64,000 nt of DNA from Variovorax sp. 54 (lineage in GTDB: Bacteria; Pseudomonadota; Gammaproteobacteria; Burkholderiales; Burkholderiaceae_C). Numbering within the stretch: the stretch's first letter is position 1; every line of letters starts with the position of its first letter. The notes beneath the pieces are model-generated. The model was given only the letters and a program-made list of their open reading frames with translations. It made no database searches and was not told the origin of the DNA. The DNA lies in the NCBI RefSeq assembly GCF_002754375.1, contig NZ_PEFF01000001.1, positions 1,116,001 to 1,180,000 of the forward strand. The letters are read 5' to 3'. The position numbers were made by a program, and so were the translations under genes. Below, one piece after another: positions 3,775 through 62,139 of this stretch.

Positions 3775-4302
3775 TCATGAAGACCTGCCAGGGCGCGGCT
3801 CCAGTCGCGAGAACAGAAGATCCTGTGCGGCCTTCAGTTCGTACTCGACGGTCCGTACAGGAATGCCAAGCCGCGTGGCCACGTCCCGCTGGGACCAGCC
3901 CTCCAGTCGAACCAGCAGCAGGATTTCGCGGCGGCGCGGCGGCAGGCGCGACAGAAGGCCATCCAGCGCCTCCAGTTGCGAACGGGCTTCGGCGACCTCG
4001 GCGGGACCGGGCGCCGGGTCCGGCAGCTCATTCATCAGCATGTCGATGTCGTCGGACAGCAGGACCTGGCTCTGTGCGCGCCGGACGTCGATGGCCAGGT
4101 TGACCGCCATGCGCAGCAGGTACGCCTGCGGCGTGGCAATGGGGCCCGCCATGGGCTGGCTGCGCTCCAGCTTCAGCCAGGTTTCGTGCAAGGCGTCTTC
4201 CGCCAGTTCGCGATTCCCCAGCCGCACGGCCAGGCGTTGCCTGAGCTGCTCGTAGCGTTGCACCAGGAAGCTGCGCAGCAGCGGGATGACGTTCTCCGTC
4301 AT
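3775..4302 (-). CDS. ECF-type RNA polymerase sigma factor, FecI-like
   Basis: 175 aa, normal for the family. Region 2 spans about 8-75 (ELAEDALHETWLKLE, then YLLRMAVNLAIDVRR). Region 4 spans about 115-168 (LPPRRREILLLVRLEGWSQRDVATRLGI, then RTVEYELKAA), a typical helix-turn-helix. It starts 3 bp after the stop of the STN protein gene, so the two are translationally linked. FecI-type factors are switched on when an outer signal reaches FecR. Here the likely target is the haemagglutinin gene two genes downstream, and possibly a distant tpsB. The sigma factor assignment is firm; the regulon is inferred. Confidence 0.94.
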   Translation of the reverse strand: MTENVIPLLRSFLVQRYEQLRQRLAVRLGNRELAEDALHETWLKLERSQPMAGPIATPQAYLLRMAVNLAIDVRRAQSQVLLSDDIDMLMNELPDPAPGPAEVAEARSQLEALDGLLSRLPPRRREILLLVRLEGWSQRDVATRLGIPVRTVEYELKAAQDLLFSRLEPRPGRSS

Positions 4303-54723: not shown

Positions 54724-55986
54724 ATGACTTCCGGCCTGAGCTTCCTGATCGCCGCGCGCCGATGCGAGATCGACGCGCTGGACCAGCTCGCGCGCACCAG
54801 CGAACTGGTCGGTGCGATCGGGCGGCTCGTGCATGCGCTGCAGCGCGAGCGCGGCATGTCGAACGTGTTCCTGGCCTCGCACGGCGGGCGCTTCGCCGAC
54901 CAGCGCGGTCCGCAGATCGCCGAATGCCTTGCGCTCGAGCAGCAGGTGCGCGCCGGCTTCGACCGGCTCGAGGCCGAGCACCACCGCGTGGTGGGTGCCG
55001 GCCACGGTGCGCGCCTGTTCAGCCGCATCGCCTGGGTGCTGCCCGGCCTGGACGCCCTGCCCGCGCTGCGCCAGCGCATCGACGCGCTCGAGCTCCAGCC
55101 GGCACAGGCCGTGGCCGCCTTCGCCAAGCTGGTGGCCGGCCTGCTGGCCGTGGTGTTCGAGGCGGCCGACGGCGCCACCGACCCCGAGATCTCGCGCCTG
55201 CTGGTGGCGATGTTCAACTTCATGCAGGGCAAGGAGTTCGCGGGCCAGGAGCGTGCCTTCGGCGCCGCAGCGCTCGCGCTGGGCCGCGGCGACGAGGCGC
55301 AGCGCCAGCAGTGGCGGCACCTCATCGAGTCGCAGGAGCGCTGCTTCCAGGTGTTCACCGATTTCTCGGGCGACGCGGTGCGCACCCTCTGGCACGACAG
55401 CCAGTCCGACGCCGTGCTGGCCGAACTCGAACGCCTGCGCCGCAAGGGCGCCACGTCGGTGCCGGCCGACGCGCTGCTGAGCCAGGCCTGGTTCGACTGC
55501 TGCACCCGGCGCATCGACGCCATGCAGACGGTCGAGAACCGCCTCTCGGCCGACCTGCGCGCGCTGTGCGACCACAAGACCGCGCAGGCGCGCAGCGAGC
55601 TGGCCGCCTACCGGCAGCTGCTCGGCACGCTGGCCCCGCAGGCCGGCGGCGCGCTGTTCTTCGACGATGCTCAAGCACAGGACGCCACGCCCGCGCAGCT
55701 CGGGCGCCACCTCGAACGCTCGGTGCTCGACATGGTCCAGGAGCAGTCGCAGCGCCTGCAGGCCATGAGCGACGAACTCGACACCGTGCGTGCCTCGCTC
55801 AACGAACGCAAGATCGTCGAGCGCGCCAAGGGCCTGCTGATGGCGCACCGGCGCCTGAGCGAGGCCGAGGCGCACAAGATGCTGCGCCAGACCGCCATGA
55901 ACCAGAAGCGCCGCCTCGTCGACGTGGCCGAGTCGATGCTGGCCATGGCCGACTACCTGCCGCTCGAACCTGCACCGCGGCGCTGA
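54724..55986 (+). CDS. nasR: Nitrate-responsive transcription antiterminator NasR (NIT + ANTAR)
   Basis: 420 aa. The N-terminal NIT (nitrate/nitrite-sensing) domain covers about 20-325, with the marker [21 protein letters not shown] (about 35-55) and the helical pair [15 protein letters not shown]. The C-terminal ANTAR RNA-binding domain is at about 355-405 ([34 protein letters not shown]). By analogy with Klebsiella NasR, nitrate binding would dimerise ANTAR and let it hold the leader RNA of the next operon in an antiterminated form. The very next intergenic region contains such a leader. Divergent from tsaD. Confidence 0.93.
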
Positions 55987-56011
55987 CCCGGGCCGCTTGG
56001 ATTGGTGCAGC

Positions 56012-56026
56012 GCACAACAGTTGTGC
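56012..56026. promoter_or_regulatory. NtrC-type enhancer palindrome upstream of nrtA
   Basis: GCAC-AACAGTT-GTGC fits the NtrC half-site pattern GCAC-N7-GTGC and is part of a perfect 17-bp palindrome (56011-56027). It is centred about 125 bp upstream of the predicted sigma54 start site, the usual range for enhancer binding. Confidence 0.65.
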
Positions 56027-56118
56027 GTCGCCGAAGTTTCCGGGCCGGATCGGACCTTCTCCTTGCCCCACGGGCGGCATCAGCTCCCCTTTCCATAGCA
56101 AAACACTGCCAGGTCAGG

Positions 56119-56136
56119 CTGGCACGTCGCTTGCGT
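56119..56136 (+). promoter_or_regulatory. Sigma54 promoter of nrtABC
   Basis: CTGGCACGTCGCTTGCGT: full match to the -24 (TGGCACG) and -12 (TTGC) elements with GG and GC 10 bp apart. Transcription is expected to begin at about 56146, giving a 159-nt leader before nrtA. Confidence 0.85.
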
Positions 56137-56173
56137 AGACCTTCTCACGGACCGCAAGGTCTCAAGGCAGGTT

Positions 56174-56218
56174 GCACCCAACGGCGGGTGCGGCCCACCG
56201 AACCGGACAAAGGCGTCC
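56174..56218 (+). promoter_or_regulatory. Two ANTAR-target hexaloop hairpins in the nrtA leader
   Basis: Hairpin 1 (56174-56191) is GCACCC-AACGGC-GGGTGC. Hairpin 2 (56205-56218) is GGAC-AAAGGC-GTCC. Both loops have six bases with A at position 1 and G at position 4, the pattern recognised by ANTAR proteins. The 3' part of hairpin 2 is also the 5' arm of the downstream terminator, so the two cannot form together. Hairpin 2 has only four pairs and probably needs protein to persist, consistent with an antiterminator. Confidence 0.78.
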
Positions 56219-56280
56219 CCATCCCGCACGGGCTCGTTCACGAGCAGCCCCTGCGCGGTGCGGACGCCTTTTCGTTTTTG
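56209..56280 (+). terminator. Intrinsic attenuator in the nrtA leader
   Basis: AAAGGCGTCC (56209-56218) pairs with GGACGCCTTT (56262-56271), 10 perfect pairs enclosing further GC-rich pairing, followed by TTTTCGTTTTTG. It lies 25 bp before the nrtA ATG and after the nasR gene, so it would stop the operon unless hairpin 2 is held open by an ANTAR protein. Confidence 0.85.
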
Positions 56281-56304
56281 TCTTTCACTTCTGGAGCCCC
56301 GCCC

Positions 56305-57552
56305 ATGTCCGATCTGCTGCTGAAAACCAAACTGAGCCGGCGCCGCGTGCTGCAAGCCGCCGCCCTCGGCGCCGTGGGCATCGACCCCGCATTGCGCGCC
56401 GCTGTCTGGGCCCAGGGATCGGACAAGCCGGAAAAGGAAGAAGTGAAGATCGGCTTCATCCCGCTGACCGACTGCGCCAGCGTGGTGATGGCCTCGGTGC
56501 TGGGCATCGACAAGAAGTACGGCGTGAAGATCGTGCCCAGCAAGGAAGCCAGCTGGGCCGGCGTGCGCGACAAGCTCTCCAACGGCGACCTCGACATGGC
56601 GCACGTGCTCTACGGCCTCGTCTACGGCATGCACCTGGGCCTGAGCGGCCCCAAGAAGGACATGGCCGTGCTCATGACCCTGAACAACAACGGCCAGGCC
56701 ATCACGCTGTCGAAGAAGCTGGCCGACAAGGGTGCGGTCGATGCCGCCTCGCTCGCCAAACTCATCGCCACCGAGAAGCGCGAATACACCTTCGCCCAGA
56801 CCTTCCCCACCGGCACGCACGCCATGTGGCTGTACTACTGGCTCGCCTCGGCCGGCATCGATCCGTTCAAGGACGTGAAGAACATCACCGTGCCGCCCCC
56901 GCAGATGGTGGCCAACATGCGCGTGGGCAACATGGACGGCTACTGCGTGGGCGAGCCCTGGGGCCAGCGCGCCATCATGGACGGCATCGGCATCACGGCC
57001 ATCACCACGCAGGACATCTGGAAGGACCACCCCGAGAAGGTGCTCGGCTGCACCGCGGAGTTCACCAAGAAGTACCCGAACACCGCACGCGCCGTGACCG
57101 CCGCGATCCTCGAGGCCAGCAAGTGGATCGACACCGGCCTGCAGAACAAGAACAAGATGGCCGAAACCATCGCCGACAAGAGCTACGTCAACACCAGCGT
57201 GGACGCCATCAACCAGCGCATCCTGGGCCGCTACACCAACGGCCTGGGCAAGAGCTGGGACGACCCCAACCACATGAAGTTCTACAACGGCGGCGCCGTG
57301 AACTTCCCGTACCTGTCGGACGGCATGTGGTTCCTCACGCAGCACAAGCGCTGGGGCCTGCTGAAGGAGCACCCCGACTACCTGAAGGTGGCCACCGAGA
57401 TCAACCGCATCGACATCTACAAGCAGGCCGCCGCCGCCACGCAGACGCCCGTGCCCAAGGACACGATGCGCAGCAGCAAGCTCTTCGACGGCACCGTCTG
57501 GGACGGCAAGGACCCGAAGAAGTACGCGGACTCGTTCAAGTTGCATGTCTGA
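56305..57552 (+). CDS. nrtA: Nitrate/nitrite ABC transporter substrate-binding protein NrtA
   Basis: 415 aa. The N-terminus carries a twin-arginine signal (SRRRVLQAAALGAVG). The NrtA/CmpA fold shows EEVKIGFIPLTDCASVVMASVLGIDKKYGVKI, YGLVYGMHLGLSGP, AQTFPTGTHAMWLYYWLASAGIDP and VPPPQMVANMRVGNMDGYCVGEPWGQRAI, all near-invariant in nitrate receptors. Tat rather than Sec export means it folds before crossing the membrane. First gene after the ANTAR-controlled leader and followed 13 bp later by nrtB. Confidence 0.95.
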   Translation: MSDLLLKTKLSRRRVLQAAALGAVGIDPALRAAVWAQGSDKPEKEEVKIGFIPLTDCASVVMASVLGIDKKYGVKIVPSKEASWAGVRDKLSNGDLDMAHVLYGLVYGMHLGLSGPKKDMAVLMTLNNNGQAITLSKKLADKGAVDAASLAKLIATEKREYTFAQTFPTGTHAMWLYYWLASAGIDPFKDVKNITVPPPQMVANMRVGNMDGYCVGEPWGQRAIMDGIGITAITTQDIWKDHPEKVLGCTAEFTKKYPNTARAVTAAILEASKWIDTGLQNKNKMAETIADKSYVNTSVDAINQRILGRYTNGLGKSWDDPNHMKFYNGGAVNFPYLSDGMWFLTQHKRWGLLKEHPDYLKVATEINRIDIYKQAAAATQTPVPKDTMRSSKLFDGTVWDGKDPKKYADSFKLHV

Positions 57553-57565
57553 GGAGAAACACACC

Positions 57566-58492
57566 ATGGTCAGCGCTGTCTTTCACTCGCCCCTGAACGC
57601 ATCCCTCCCTCTCCCGCATGCGGGAGAGGGCCGGGGTGAGGGTGCGGCCCACGCCAAGGCCGCCCCGCTCCCCCGCGCGGAGAAAGAGAAGAAGCCACGC
57701 ACGCCCCTCGACCTGCGCGCCTTCTGGATGCGCGTGCTCCCGCCGTTCCTGGGCTTCGGCCTGCTGGTGCTGGTCTGGGAGATCGTGGCCATGAAGAGCA
57801 CCACCGGTTTCCCCACGCCACTCGCCACCTGGCAGCAGGCGCTCACGGTGTTCAGCGACCCGTTCTACAGCAAGGGCCCGAACGACCAGGGCGTGGGCTG
57901 GAACGTGCTGTCATCGCTGCAGCGCGTGGCGCTGGGCTTCGGGCTCGCGGCGGCGGTCGGCATTCCGGCCGGCTTTGCCATCGGGCGCTTCGAGTTCCTC
58001 TCGCGCATGTTCAACCCGCTGATCAGCCTGCTGCGCCCGGTGTCGCCGCTGGCCTGGCTGCCCATCGGCCTGCTGGTGTTCAAGGGCGCCAACCCGGCCG
58101 CGATCTGGACCATCTTCATCTGCTCGATCTGGCCGATGGTCATCAACACCGCCGTGGGCGTGCAGCGCGTGCCCAGCGACTACATGAACGTGGCCAAGGT
58201 GCTCAACCTCAGCGAATGGAAGATCCTCACCAAGATCCTCTTTCCCGCCGTGCTGCCCTACATGCTCACGGGCGTGCGGCTGGCCGTGGGCACCGCGTGG
58301 CTGGTGATCGTCGCGGCCGAGATGCTCACGGGCGGCGTCGGCATCGGCTTCTGGGTGTGGGACGAGTGGAACAACCTCAACGTCGCCAACATCATCATCG
58401 CGATCTTCGTGATCGGCATCGTCGGTCTGGTGCTGGAGTTCGCGCTCATCAAGCTCGCCACCGCATTCACGTTCGAAGAGGTGAAGTCATGA
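57566..58492 (+). CDS. nrtB: Nitrate ABC transporter permease NrtB, with repeat-encoded N-terminal insert
   Basis: 308 aa from the ATG at 57566 (GAGGAG ribosome site). Six membrane helices within about 58-300, and the inner-membrane coupling motif VAKVLNLSEWKILTKILFPAVLPYMLTGVRLAVG. GTAWLVIVAAEMLTGGVGIGFWVWDEWNNLN is typical of NrtB/SsuC/TauC. The first 45 residues include SLPLPHAGEGRGEG, encoded by an in-frame palindromic repeat (57607-57642), and lie before the first helix. The start overlaps nothing; the stop overlaps the ATPase start by 4 bp. Confidence 0.94.
   Translation: MVSAVFHSPLNASLPLPHAGEGRGEGAAHAKAAPLPRAEKEKKPRTPLDLRAFWMRVLPPFLGFGLLVLVWEIVAMKSTTGFPTPLATWQQALTVFSDPFYSKGPNDQGVGWNVLSSLQRVALGFGLAAAVGIPAGFAIGRFEFLSRMFNPLISLLRPVSPLAWLPIGLLVFKGANPAAIWTIFICSIWPMVINTAVGVQRVPSDYMNVAKVLNLSEWKILTKILFPAVLPYMLTGVRLAVGTAWLVIVAAEMLTGGVGIGFWVWDEWNNLNVANIIIAIFVIGIVGLVLEFALIKLATAFTFEEVKS
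57607..57642. repeat. Palindromic REP-like element inside nrtB
   Basis: A perfect 24-bp palindrome (57607-57630, CCCTCTCCCGC-AT-GCGGGAGAGGG without the extra base) followed by CCGGGGTGAGGG. This sequence family is common between genes in many Gammaproteobacteria and Betaproteobacteria and when translated gives PSPxGEGRGEG-type peptides. Here it lies in frame in nrtB without interrupting it. Confidence 0.88.
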
Positions 58493-59298
58493 ACGACGAT
58501 TCGAAGTACATCGAGATCCACGGGGTCGAGCAAGCCTTCAAGACGCCCAAGGGCCGCTTCGTCGCGCTGCGCGACGTGAACCTGAACGTGGCCAAGGGCG
58601 AGTTCGTCACGCTCATCGGGCACTCGGGCTGCGGCAAGTCGACGCTGCTGAACCTCATTGCCGGGCTGACCACGCCCACGCAGGGCGTGCTGCTGTGCGC
58701 CAACAAGGAGATCAAGGGCCCGGGCCCCGAGCGCGCCGTGGTGTTCCAGAACCACTCGCTGCTGCCCTGGCTCACCTGCTTCGAGAACGTGTACCTCGCG
58801 GTCGAGCGCGTGTTCGCGGCCACCGAGAGCAAGGCACAGCTGCGCGAACGCACCGACGCGGCACTCGCGCTGGTGGGCCTCACGCCCGCGGCGCAGAAGC
58901 GGCCCGGCGAAATCTCGGGCGGCATGAAGCAGCGCGTGGGCATTGCGCGTGCGCTGTCGATGGAGCCCAAGGTGCTGCTGATGGACGAGCCCTTCGGCGC
59001 GCTCGACGCCCTCACCCGCGCCAAGCTGCAGGACGAGCTGCTCGCCATCGTGCAGAAGACGCGCAGCACGGTCGTCATGGTCACGCACGACGTCGACGAG
59101 GCCGTGCTGCTGTCCGACCGCATCGTGATGCTGACCAACGGCCCGGCCGCCACCATCGGCGACGTGCTGACGGTGGACATCGCACGCCCGCGCAACCGCG
59201 TGGCGTTGGCCGAAGACCCGGCCTATGTGCACGCGCGCAAGGCGGTGATCGATTTTCTCTACACGCGCCAGGCGCATGTGGAGAAGGCCGCGGCCTGA
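58489..59298 (+). CDS. Nitrate ABC transporter ATPase (NrtD/NasD type)
   Basis: 269 aa, single ATPase domain, without the extra substrate-binding-like domain found in cyanobacterial NrtC. Walker A GHSGCGKST (about 45-53), Q-loop VVFQNHSLLPWLTCFENVYLA, signature ISGGMKQRVGIARALS, Walker B VLLMDEPFGALD, switch His VTHDVDEAVLLSDRIVML. All catalytic residues intact. It would pair as a homodimer beneath NrtB. ATGA overlap with nrtB. Confidence 0.94.
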   Translation: MNDDSKYIEIHGVEQAFKTPKGRFVALRDVNLNVAKGEFVTLIGHSGCGKSTLLNLIAGLTTPTQGVLLCANKEIKGPGPERAVVFQNHSLLPWLTCFENVYLAVERVFAATESKAQLRERTDAALALVGLTPAAQKRPGEISGGMKQRVGIARALSMEPKVLLMDEPFGALDALTRAKLQDELLAIVQKTRSTVVMVTHDVDEAVLLSDRIVMLTNGPAATIGDVLTVDIARPRNRVALAEDPAYVHARKAVIDFLYTRQAHVEKAAA

Positions 59299-59323: not shown

Positions 59324-60604
59324 TCAGGACATGATGACCTGCAGGCTGTGCTCGTACCACCCGGTCAGGCGCTCGAACGTGTCGACCAGCGCCTCGCTGG
59401 AACGCACCAGCGTGGCGCGCCCTTCGGGGCTGTCGAGCGCCTGCACGCCGCCGACGAGGCGCAGCCACTCGTCGCGCGCGCTCACCAGCCCGGCGCGGAT
59501 CTCGGGCGAGCTGAGCGGCGCGCGCTCCAGCTCCAGCAGCGCGGCTTCGAACTCGTGCATGGTCGGCAGCAGCCGGTCGCGCGAGGCACCGGCCGCGAGC
59601 GTCGAGGCCAGCAGCGCGTCCTTGGCCAGCCGCTGCGCACGCATGCGCTGCCGTCCGCAGATGTTGACGATGCGCAGCGCGCGCCGAGCACCCGAGGCTT
59701 CCAGCGCATCCGTCAGGGCCTCGGCCGCCGACAGCAAGGCCTCGCCGCGCGCATCGATCGCTGCAAGCCCCTGCGCCGCGGGCTTGGCGCCCAGCAGCGC
59801 GGCCAGCTCGTTCCACGCGGCCTGCACCTCGCCGAGCGCCTGCACGCCGACCGGGCCCAGTTCGAGGGCGGTCAGATGATCCAGCGTCTGCTGCACCCGC
59901 TCGGTCGATTGCGTGCGCAGCACGCGCGCACGCTGCGCGTCGATCCCCGCCGCGAGCTGTGCCGCCACGCGCACCAGCCGCTGCGAGAGCATGCGCAGCT
60001 GGCCCGCCCGGTTGATCGCCTCGGCCCACTGCGCGGCCTCGATGACCGAGCGCGACACCTCGCCCAGGCGCAGGTTGGCGTGCATCGCGGCGCCGCGCAG
60101 CAGGCCGAAAGCCTCGTCTTCGCCGATGCCGCGCGCGGACATCAGCAGGCCCTTGGCGCGATCGACCCACTTGCGCTCGTCCATGCGCGTGCGCAGGTTG
60201 TCGAGCTCGGTGCGCAGTGCGGCTTCGCGTGTCCATCGGGCCTGCGCCCGGGCGAGCAGTGCGGGGAGCGACAACGCATCGAGCGGTGCCCACGCCTGCA
60301 CGCCGAGCGCGACCAGTGCCTCGTGCTGTTCGCCGGCCAGCGGCGCCCCCACCACGCTCACCGCGCACGGCGGCACGCCGCTCCACCCCTGCAGCGCGTC
60401 GCACAGCAGTTGCAGCGGGGCCGGCCCGGGCCAATGGACCAGGACCTGTTGCGGTGCGAGCACGCCCACCTGTTGCACCAGCGTGTGGCAGGTGGCCCGC
60501 CCGAGCACCGTGGCGCCCGCCTGCGCAAGCCCCTGCACGAGCGGCTCCGGCAGGGGCGCGCGGGCGTCGATATCAGGGGGAAGAACAAGCAGAAGGGACG
60601 TCAT
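59324..60604 (-). CDS. ANTAR regulator with receiver-like domain and tandem PilJ/NarX P-box-type nitrate-sensor domains
   Basis: 426 aa from the ATG at 60604. Residues 1-120 resemble a degenerate receiver (MTSLLLVLPPDIDARAP, no clear phosphoacceptor Asp). The ANTAR helices are at about 133-188 (LDNLRTRMDERKWVDRAKGLLMSARGIGEDEAF). Two PilJ-type domains follow: one opens at 195 with EAINRAGQLRMLSQRL, very close to the P-box of NarX/NarQ, and the second at 310 with RIVNICGRQRMRAQRLAK. The NarX P-box binds nitrate in the periplasm, but here there is no membrane helix, so sensing would be cytoplasmic. It is convergent with nrtD and divergent from the transporter gene, in whose leader an ANTAR hairpin lies. 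Confidence 0.85.
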   Translation of the reverse strand: MTSLLLVLPPDIDARAPLPEPLVQGLAQAGATVLGRATCHTLVQQVGVLAPQQVLVHWPGPAPLQLLCDALQGWSGVPPCAVSVVGAPLAGEQHEALVALGVQAWAPLDALSLPALLARAQARWTREAALRTELDNLRTRMDERKWVDRAKGLLMSARGIGEDEAFGLLRGAAMHANLRLGEVSRSVIEAAQWAEAINRAGQLRMLSQRLVRVAAQLAAGIDAQRARVLRTQSTERVQQTLDHLTALELGPVGVQALGEVQAAWNELAALLGAKPAAQGLAAIDARGEALLSAAEALTDALEASGARRALRIVNICGRQRMRAQRLAKDALLASTLAAGASRDRLLPTMHEFEAALLELERAPLSSPEIRAGLVSARDEWLRLVGGVQALDSPEGRATLVRSSEALVDTFERLTGWYEHSLQVIMS

Positions 60605-60668: not shown

Positions 60669-60686
60669 GGGCACGCCTCTTGCATT
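60669..60686 (+). promoter_or_regulatory. Sigma54 promoter of the nitrate transporter gene
   Basis: CGGGCACGCCTCTTGCATT: GG and GC separated by 10 bp, GGCACG and TTGCA matching the -24/-12 consensus. The transcript would begin near 60694, making a leader of about 180 nt before the MFS transporter gene. Confidence 0.78.
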
Positions 60687-60695
60687 GGATGGAGT

Positions 60696-60715
60696 GCGGT
60701 GTAACGAAGCACCGC
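60696..60715 (+). promoter_or_regulatory. ANTAR-target hexaloop hairpin in the nitrate transporter leader
   Basis: GCGGTGT-AACGAA-GCACCGC: a 7-bp stem (with one G-U pair) and a six-base loop that again starts A and has G at position 4. It lies at the very 5' end of the predicted transcript. Downstream, CGGCCT/AGGCCG (60831-60847) followed 9 nt later by TTTTT (60857-60861) is a possible terminator; a second hexaloop overlapping it could not be identified. Confidence 0.65.
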
Positions 60716-60876
60716 TTTGGTGATGAGGCTGCAGGCTCCTGCATCCCGCCCGGCCGCGCTCAGGCCGGGCACACCCCCACGCCGACAGCGTCCGCTGCCG
60801 GCACCCCGACCCCCACCCCGTCCGTCGACACGGCCTGCCCCAGGCCGGGCCGCGGCTTTTTGCACCTTTGAACACC

Positions 60877-62139
60877 ATGTCCGGTTTCAGGAATTTCTTG
60901 CAGTCAGGCCACAGTCCGACCCTGTTCGCGGCCTTCCTGTACTTCTCGTTCTCCTGCTGCATCTGGGTGCTCAACGGCGCCATGGCGCCCTTCATCGGCG
61001 AGACCTTCGACCTCTCGCCCGCGCAGAAGGGCCTGATGCTGTCGGTGCCGATCATCGCGGGCGCGCTCATGCGCTTTCCGCTGGGCCTGCTTTCGCAGTA
61101 CATCGGCCGCAAGAAGGCCACGCTGGTCGAGATGGGCCTCATCGCCGTGGCGATGCTGTTCGGCTTCTTCTTCGTGAAGAGCTTCAACGACCTGCTCGCC
61201 ATGGGCGTGCTGCTGGGCATTGCCGGCGCGAGCTTCGGCGTGGCGCTGTCGCTGGGCTCGGGCTGGTTCCCGCCGCAGCACAAGGGCCTGGCCATGGGCC
61301 TGGTGGGTGCGGGCAACGTGGGCACGGCGGTGTCGGTGCTGGTGGCGCCGCCGCTCGCACTGTGGCTCGGCTGGCAGGCGGTGTACGGCGTGGCCGCGGT
61401 CGCGATCCTGATCCCGATGGTGGTGATGGTGGTGTTCGCCAAGGAGCCACCCGATGTGGACCCCCACGGCAGCTTCCGCGAACACATCGCCTGCCTCTTC
61501 GAAAAAGACGGCTGGGTCTTCAGCCTGATCTACGGCGTGACCTTCGGCGGCTTCATCGGCCTGACCACCTTCCTGCCTTCGTACTACTACGACCAGTTCG
61601 GCGTGAGCAAGGTGCAGGCCGGCCAGCTGACGATGCTCGCGGCCTTCATGGGCGCGGCGGTGCGCATCGTGGGCGGCTGGCTGTCCGACCGCTGGGGCGG
61701 CGTCAACACGCTCACGGTGGTGCTGCTGGTGGTGGCCGTGGGCCTCGTGCTCGTGGGCTTCTCGTCGGGCTCGCTGGCGCTCACCACGTTGTTGCTGATC
61801 GTGTGCTTCGCCGCGCTGGGCGCGGGCAACGGCGCGCTGTTCCAGCTGGTGCCGCTGCGCTGGCCCGCGAGCACGGCGGTGGCCGGTTCGATGATCGGCG
61901 AGATCGGCGCCCTCGGCGGCGGCCTCGTGCCCAACGCCATGGGCCTGTCGAAGCAGTACCTGGGCAGCTATGCCTGGGGCTTCGTGTTCTTCGCGCTGCT
62001 GTCGCTCGTGATGCTGGGCGTGATGCGCGTGATGCAGATCCGCTGGACACGCACCTGGGCCGAAAAGGGTGGCCGCGCGCGTGTCACACCGGCCCCTGCT
62101 GCGAAGCCCTCGCCCGTTCGCAAGGCCGCCCGCTCATGA
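60877..62139 (+). CDS. Nitrate/nitrite MFS transporter (NNP family, NasA/NarK type)
   Basis: 420 aa from the ATG at 60877; a TTG nine bases upstream is also in frame. Twelve membrane helices. The two nitrate signature motifs are visible: GIAGASFGVALSLGSGWFPPQHKGLAMGLVGAGNVGT (about 115-150) and GFVFF-region GAGNGALFQLVPLRWPASTAVAGSMIGEIGALGG (about 310-345). The conserved Arg in helix 2 is present in GALMRFPLGL. It works alongside NrtABC for nitrate uptake. Sigma54 promoter and ANTAR hairpin upstream. Confidence 0.93.
   Translation: MSGFRNFLQSGHSPTLFAAFLYFSFSCCIWVLNGAMAPFIGETFDLSPAQKGLMLSVPIIAGALMRFPLGLLSQYIGRKKATLVEMGLIAVAMLFGFFFVKSFNDLLAMGVLLGIAGASFGVALSLGSGWFPPQHKGLAMGLVGAGNVGTAVSVLVAPPLALWLGWQAVYGVAAVAILIPMVVMVVFAKEPPDVDPHGSFREHIACLFEKDGWVFSLIYGVTFGGFIGLTTFLPSYYYDQFGVSKVQAGQLTMLAAFMGAAVRIVGGWLSDRWGGVNTLTVVLLVVAVGLVLVGFSSGSLALTTLLLIVCFAALGAGNGALFQLVPLRWPASTAVAGSMIGEIGALGGGLVPNAMGLSKQYLGSYAWGFVFFALLSLVMLGVMRVMQIRWTRTWAEKGGRARVTPAPAAKPSPVRKAARS

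Follow-up and report, generated by a model that had tools for sequence, protein, structure and literature searches.

A probable ANTAR two-hairpin attenuator ahead of nrtABC in Variovorax sp. 54, with a second ANTAR regulator gene in the same locus

Dual hexaloop hairpins with an overlapping terminator are found in the EutV, AmiR and NasT leaders (Ramesh et al. 2012), and the same design recurs in the leader described here. The closest described system is nasR-nasF of Klebsiella oxytoca, in which the regulator is likewise a NIT+ANTAR protein and the hexaloops of hairpins P1 and P2, closed by C:G, have A at position 1 (A1) and G at position 4 (G4); according to the available text of the two papers, NasR prevents the terminator in the nasF leader (PMC3369931, PMC7496416). 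Binding of P1P2 RNA by Klebsiella NasR requires nitrate or nitrite, and SELEX with NasR yielded the terminal C:G pair closing each loop (available text of PMC7496416). The two-hairpin motif has matches upstream of nitrate/nitrite transporters in general, with Burkholderia among the genera (available text of PMC3369931). Our literature search found no paper with both "Variovorax" and "ANTAR domain".

We analyzed a stretch of 64 kb (C1:1116001-1180000, hereafter the window, in which positions are counted) from the genome of Variovorax sp. 54, which is a single contig of 6.64 Mb. The gene order in the window is nasR, nrtA, nrtB, nrtC, an ANTAR-PilJ gene on the opposite strand and a narK-type transporter gene. 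The nasR gene (54724..55986, + strand) encodes a NIT + ANTAR regulator (Pfam NIT 5.7e-54, ANTAR 2.9e-18) and likely starts at MTSGL, its reading frame being open from 54508. The gene for the nitrate ABC transporter binding protein, nrtA (56305..57552, +), was named by its NMT1_2 domain (Pfam, 1.4e-102) and its neighbours, and is followed by the permease gene nrtB (57545..58492, +; TIGR01183, 246.4 bits) and the ATPase gene nrtC (58489..59298, +; TIGR01184, 343.6 bits), both scoring above their cut-offs. The second ANTAR regulator (59324..60604, −) consists of an N-terminal region, ANTAR (Pfam 2e-18) and PilJ (4.1e-17). For the narK-type nitrate/nitrite MFS transporter (60877..62139, +; Pfam MFS_1), TIGR00886 was the best NCBIfam match, at 240.8 bits and so under the cut-off of 311.7. 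By NasR identity, the closest among the best 80 of 136 named loci were those of Variovorax boronicumulans NBRC 103145 (98%) and Variovorax sp. Root473 (97%). The third ANTAR protein of the genome is of the AmiR type (AmiR_N + ANTAR) and lies at L086:7074-7913 on the − strand (genome C1:3385131).

The first-pass annotation had described two A1/G4 hexaloop hairpins, the second mutually exclusive with a 10-bp terminator stem and U-tract, all within a 159-nt sigma54 leader directly after nasR, and each of these elements was read again in the sequence. Downstream of the nasR end at 55986, a sigma54 −24/−12 promoter, TGGCACGTCGCTTGCG (56120..56135, +), follows the pattern TGGCAY-N6-TGC and places the predicted transcription start at about 56146, which gives a predicted nrtA leader of 159 nt before the ATG at 56305. 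Upstream of it lies the palindrome CGCACAACAGTTGTGCG (56011..56027) with the pattern GCAC-N7-GTGC, called NtrC-like here on the basis of what we take to be the NtrC consensus. The leader opens with a hairpin P0 (GGACC GCAA GGTCT; 56149..56162, +), whose GCAA tetraloop is not an ANTAR loop in the window. P1 (56170..56195, +) has ten pairs, two of them G-U, with arms at 56170-56179 and 56186-56195 and the hexaloop AACGGC at 56180-56185. In P2, the putative antiterminator (56205..56218, +), the arms GGAC (56205-56208) and GTCC (56215-56218) enclose the hexaloop AAAGGC (56209-56214). Both loops carry A1 and G4 and are closed by C:G (C-AACGGC-G and C-AAAGGC-G). The intrinsic terminator (56209..56279, +) encloses an inner stem-loop and runs into a T-rich tail reaching about 56279. 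Its 5' strand, 56209-56218, is the P2 loop plus the P2 3' arm and pairs 10/10 with 56262-56271, and P2 and the terminator exclude each other both by sequence and in folding. A simple terminator scan (loop of 3-8 nt) misses this terminator because its loop exceeds the limit.

We consider it highly probable that the nasR-nrtA intergenic region is an ANTAR two-hairpin transcription attenuator at which, by homology to Klebsiella NasR, nitrate-bound NasR would antiterminate nrtABC. RNA polymerase would initiate at this sigma54 promoter, with NtrC and nitrogen limitation as the probable control, as suggested by the sigma54 site together with the palindrome at 56011. Without nitrate, the leader is predicted to fold into the strong terminator, so that transcription would stop before nrtA. 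With nitrate, NasR would bind the ligand in its NIT domain and its ANTAR domains would be released; these would then bind the P1 and P2 hexaloops and hold P2, thereby blocking the terminator and allowing nrtABC to be transcribed. Nitrate uptake in Variovorax and its relatives could thus be read as a double gate.

For comparison, the 80 best of 136 named loci with a NasR-related protein were taken, the choice being made by protein and not by RNA; they were mostly from Variovorax, plus Xenophilus, Pseudacidovorax, Polaromonas, Xylophilus, Ramlibacter and others. An nrtA gene was matched in 77 of them, L007, L013 and L056 being excluded for lack of a match, and the window's own locus brought the set to 78 leaders. 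P2 (GGACAANGNNGTCC) was present in all 78, as was the sigma54 pattern TGGCAY-N6-TGC. In 55 of the 78 loci the palindrome GCAC-N7-GTGC lay in the 250 nt preceding the promoter, compared with 91 of 5013 background windows, and 23 loci were without the strict pattern. No more than 50 nt before P2, 76 of 78 leaders had a hairpin of four or more contiguous pairs with an A1/G4 hexaloop; next to the P1 loop there were only two pairs in L071 and L083 and three in L064, the last being counted among the 76. The terminator partner, taken as the best 10-nt match in the 96 nt after P2, formed 10/10 pairs in 76 leaders and 9/10 in two (L067 and L083), each with a T-rich tail.

Several leaders differed in layout. 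The Polaromonas-type leaders (L066, L068, L070-L074 and L077-L083) have a longer P1-P2 spacer that mostly folds as a further hairpin, weakly in L079 and L080. By eye, most Variovorax-type leaders have a P0-like hairpin before P1; P0 is itself an A1/G4 hexaloop hairpin in some Variovorax (L050, L058, L062, L064 and L069). In L056, nasR is directly followed by narK, which has a canonical nrtA-type leader, and in L079 there is one leader ahead of nrtA and another ahead of narK, the P2 of the latter reading AGAC AAAGGC GTCT.

The P2 loop and the terminator strand matched each other across the leaders: AAAGGC was paired with GCCTTT in 63/63, AACGGC with GCCGTT in 14/14, and AAAGAC with GTCTTT in 2/2 further leaders, while the loop of L067 was AACGAA. 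Since loop and terminator change together, both structures appear to be kept, though the AACGGC loops are confined to one leader group and the co-changes may be few evolutionary events. The P2 stem was invariant in the aligned leaders and so gives no covariation evidence itself. P1 was assessed in one alignment of 54 of the 64 Variovorax-type leaders, from which 10 copies or near copies had been dropped, and in another of the 14 Polaromonas-type leaders. Loop positions 1 and 4 were invariant A and G in 54/54 and 14/14, while the stem changed. Among the 54, six of the ten P1 pairs changed on both sides (31 such cells), and the covariation score was 0.206 against 0.138 in shuffles, with 0/500 shuffles as high; structures slid by 1-3 columns scored at most 0.104. 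The Polaromonas-type leaders gave 0.349 against 0.145. These scores are to be read with the tool's warning that kinship alone can exceed shuffles, and the number of two-sided P1 pairs was matched by 27/500 shuffles for the 54 leaders and 70/500 for the 14. The comparison of homologous nrtA leaders proposed in the first-pass annotation thus found covariation in the P1 stem, and in the P2 loop with the terminator, along with conserved A1 and G4, and these features, with an adjacent NIT+ANTAR protein, bear out its reading of an ANTAR-type attenuator. They also make a clean leader set for testing ANTAR recognition.

The best solved relative of the window's NasR is 4akk (E 5.5e-44), annotated as a nitrate regulatory protein, which we take to be Klebsiella NasR. 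NasR carries both the NIT and ANTAR domains and is homologous to 4akk over its length. Of the RNA-binding residues, R340, K341 and K347 are kept and K345 is replaced by R (RKIVERAK vs RKLIEKAK), a change that is near wild type in Klebsiella NasR. The GQER stretch, with E175 and R176 near nitrate, is also kept; residue numbers were placed by motif, not by structure. NasR, whose gene adjoins the leader, is the likely regulator.

To follow the leader across genomes, we used two models, R1 from Variovorax-type leaders and R2 from the 14 Polaromonas-type leaders only. R2, which contains no Variovorax-type leader, recovered the element of the window with 30.9 bits (E 2e-7), the next match having an E of 0.29. 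In its own genome, R1 had one strong place (76.7 bits), and further places elsewhere in the genome were only weak matches of 21.3 bits or less. A search for copies in a plasmid collection returned no match at E 1e-5. R1 matched in 108 of the 399 genomes of the family, and 40 of these matches were fetched, one per genome, chosen across genera and not at random. The sigma54 site and the terminator are not part of the R1 model; the P2 loop was preceded at 62-96 nt by a sigma54 site in 39/40 fetched matches, and a T-tailed terminator was present in 39/40, the exceptions being L233 for the former and L234 for the latter.

Of the 399 genomes, 103 had a match to NasR-like proteins (E 1e-15) and 77 to ANTAR-PilJ (E 1e-30). 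Ten genomes had R1, NasR and ANTAR-PilJ, 29 had R1 and NasR without ANTAR-PilJ, nine had R1 with ANTAR-PilJ only, and 60 had R1 alone. At the limit used, 69 of the 108 R1 genomes were without a NasR match and 64 of the 103 NasR genomes were without R1, which shows that leader and NasR are not strictly paired; the 60 genomes with R1 alone suggest that such leaders also serve other ANTAR proteins, presumably of the NasT type. An R1 match lay less than 300 nt downstream of nasR in 14 genomes, including that of the window, and nine of the 14 had no ANTAR-PilJ match (E 1e-30), which suggests that NasR suffices for leaders of this type.

The ANTAR-PilJ protein was absent from the first-pass annotation, and its presence in the window makes the question of who binds what less automatic. 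It has a weak match to the solved chemotaxis transducer 6gcv (E 0.032), presumably the PilJ domain of McpN. The nrtA leader could be an ANTAR attenuator that is bound by this neighbouring protein (59324-60604), alone or together with NasR. Its gene belongs to the same locus, its ANTAR basic residues are the same (RKWVDRAK), AACG loops are common to the nrtA and narK leaders, and two of its stretches, AINRAGQLRM and IVNICGRQRM, match the nitrate-sensor G-x-x-R motif quoted in the available text of PMC8199190. We nevertheless regard this explanation as unlikely, because the protein has no match in those nine genomes with nasR-adjacent R1 leaders and because its genes have a divergent leader of their own, in which a G4 hexaloop hairpin was present at 55 of the 60 loci fetched. 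An ANTAR-PilJ fusion is not described in the available text of PMC8199190, and the literature matches listed for it were mostly Antarctic or unrelated by title.

In the window, this divergent leader (60669-60877) belongs to narK. A second sigma54-like site, GGGCACGCCTCTTGCA (60669..60684, +), is followed, where the transcript is predicted to begin, by a hairpin (60696..60715, +) with the arms GCGGTGT and GCACCGC and the A1/G4 loop AACGAA. No second A1/G4 hairpin of at least 4 bp was found in 60680-60890, and this leader has neither a canonical P2 nor the overlap with a terminator; it is predicted from 25 leaders to end in an imperfect U-tailed hairpin without a hexaloop (60820-60856). The sequence GGTGTAACGAAGCACCG was found without change in 33 of the 36 named loci that have narK; ANTAR-PilJ was present in all 33, and the three narK loci lacking the sequence (L056, L074 and L079) had no ANTAR-PilJ match. 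As the hairpin is unchanged in the 33 loci, there is no covariation within that set. Its pattern has a single occurrence in the genome and, with up to three mismatches allowed, was found in 8 of 399 genomes, because it varies outside Variovorax.

The 60 fetched ANTAR-PilJ loci were the best by score from 76 other genomes, three of them of the same genus. A hairpin with at least five contiguous pairs and G at loop position 4 was the form counted in the 55 loci, and A, C and T at that position were found in 2, 2 and 3; the loop lies 33-41 nt after the start of the sigma54 match. The count of 47 for C at position 4 in reversed segments is the mirror image of the same hairpins and not a control. 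In an alignment of 52 rows (the window and 51 of the 55 leaders), the stems covaried, with 74 two-sided cells and a score of 0.521 against 0.265, 0/500 shuffles being as high, and the number of two-sided pairs was matched by 130/500 shuffles. Among the 60 loci, the loops were A1/G4 in 35 and G1/G4 in 21, at least one locus having both. A second hexaloop hairpin, specified in the search by A or G at position 1 and G at position 4, was found 42-47 nt downstream in 21 loci.

Six two-hexaloop ANTAR-PilJ leaders (L168, L169, L176, L178, L180 and L182) showed no overlapping terminator by eye; in these, a GTGCCTC stretch beyond the second hairpin is a possible partner for the 5' arm of that hairpin or for a ribosome-binding site. 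In L140 (about 3905-3926, −), seven T follow the 5' hexaloop hairpin, and P1 could serve as a terminator itself.

The narK leader resembles an ANTAR target and fails the two-hairpin test, and ANTAR-PilJ would be the protein that binds it. A wider picture, to which we give even chances, is that two ANTAR nitrate switches lie side by side: the NasR attenuator of nrtABC, and ANTAR-PilJ, with a chemoreceptor-type nitrate-binding domain, acting on the divergent sigma54 leader of narK by way of one A1/G4 hairpin at the 5' end, with no P2-terminator overlap and by a mechanism that departs from the textbook, the Rfam narK RNA and P11 families being ANTAR leaders as well. A leader of this kind, lacking the canonical second hairpin, would make the two-hairpin rule testable inside one locus.

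Returning to the nrtA leader, we asked how its parts compare with chance and how they fold. The composite of two A1/G4 hexaloop hairpins and an overlapping T-tailed stem occurred once in the 64-kb window, both strands being searched. Shuffling the window 20 times gave none on the 40 resulting strands, and one of 2000 shuffled versions of the 318-nt region contained it; a chance origin was rejected on these counts. The entire leader folded better than shuffles (z −3.55), 2 of 200 being equally good. In free-RNA folding, the terminator form (−69.9 kcal/mol) was favoured by 12.7 over the form with P2 forced (−57.2 kcal/mol). P0:P2 mispairing also competed, one P2 pair having a probability of only 0.25-0.44 before the terminator is made.

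This mispairing bears on another explanation, namely that the terminator is real but unregulated or otherwise regulated, for example by P0-dependent attenuation, and that the hexaloops are incidental. In short transcripts, the 5' arm of P0 is able to pair with the 3' arm of P2, and a P0-like hairpin is the usual arrangement in Variovorax-type leaders. However, L040 and L051 have no P0 and yet keep P1, P2 and the terminator, the A1 and G4 of P1 are invariant in both alignments despite the changing stem, and the leader adjoins an ANTAR gene, so that we find this explanation improbable, more so than binding by ANTAR-PilJ. That transcription starts elsewhere, leaving the hairpins as DNA-level or nasR 3'-UTR elements, is scarcely credible: the start is a predicted one and read-through from nasR could also enter the leader, but the sigma54 site is kept in 78/78 leaders and 39/40 further ones, the palindrome lies upstream in 55/78, and a search of 55900-56350 found no sigma70-type promoter, on which ground a downstream sigma70 start was rejected; the first-pass annotation had named transcription starting downstream of the hairpins as a case against its reading. 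Antitermination of nrtABC by NasR thus stays our preferred reading.

Against Rfam at gathering level, nothing was found in the window or in eight nasR loci; 15 ANTAR-PilJ loci gave no narK RNA or P11 RNA and matches to two other RNAs, and the narK leader of the window had no match up to E 1. Below the level for membership, the nrtA leader matched RF03032 narK RNA (E 0.0005; 30.8 bits, gathering 43.2) and RF00625 P11 (E 0.0042; 23.3 bits, gathering 70). The RF03032 consensus, with GGCAC..UUGC, a six-base-loop hairpin and CGAC AAAGAC GUCG, reads as a sigma54 promoter followed by P1 and P2. The window aligns to it over all 72 positions, a 32-nt insert (P0 to P1) stretching the model hairpin, where the alignment is imperfect. 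The P11 consensus has GGCAC..CUGC, a C:G-closed hairpin with the loop AACGAU, GGACAAAGGCGUCC and a GGACGCC terminator strand, in the same order of parts as in the window; unlike the nrtA leader, P11 is annotated as a Pseudomonas sRNA gene. In 398 genomes, RF03032 had 36 matches at E ≤0.001, none above gathering. Of these, 19 overlap an R1 match, and at least 25 either overlap R1 or sit just downstream of nasR, the nasR count (11) being a minimum. A P11 search in the window's own genome and 14 control genomes returned no match, which does not imply absence. Judged by their consensus sequences, the narK RNA and P11 families are probably sigma54-driven ANTAR leaders, and the P11 sRNA is perhaps a terminated leader; both families would thereby gain a candidate binding protein.

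Compared with known systems, the nrtA leader repeats the arrangement of Klebsiella, where we take nasR to lie just upstream of nasF, and its kind is already known. The window element would control the nrtABC uptake genes of a betaproteobacterium, whereas that of Klebsiella controls the nasFEDCBA operon. It also differs in its 63-nt terminator hairpin with an inner stem-loop and in its extra P0, the Klebsiella leader being compared here by its published description. What the locus adds is the presence of two ANTAR regulators side by side and the link to the two Rfam families.
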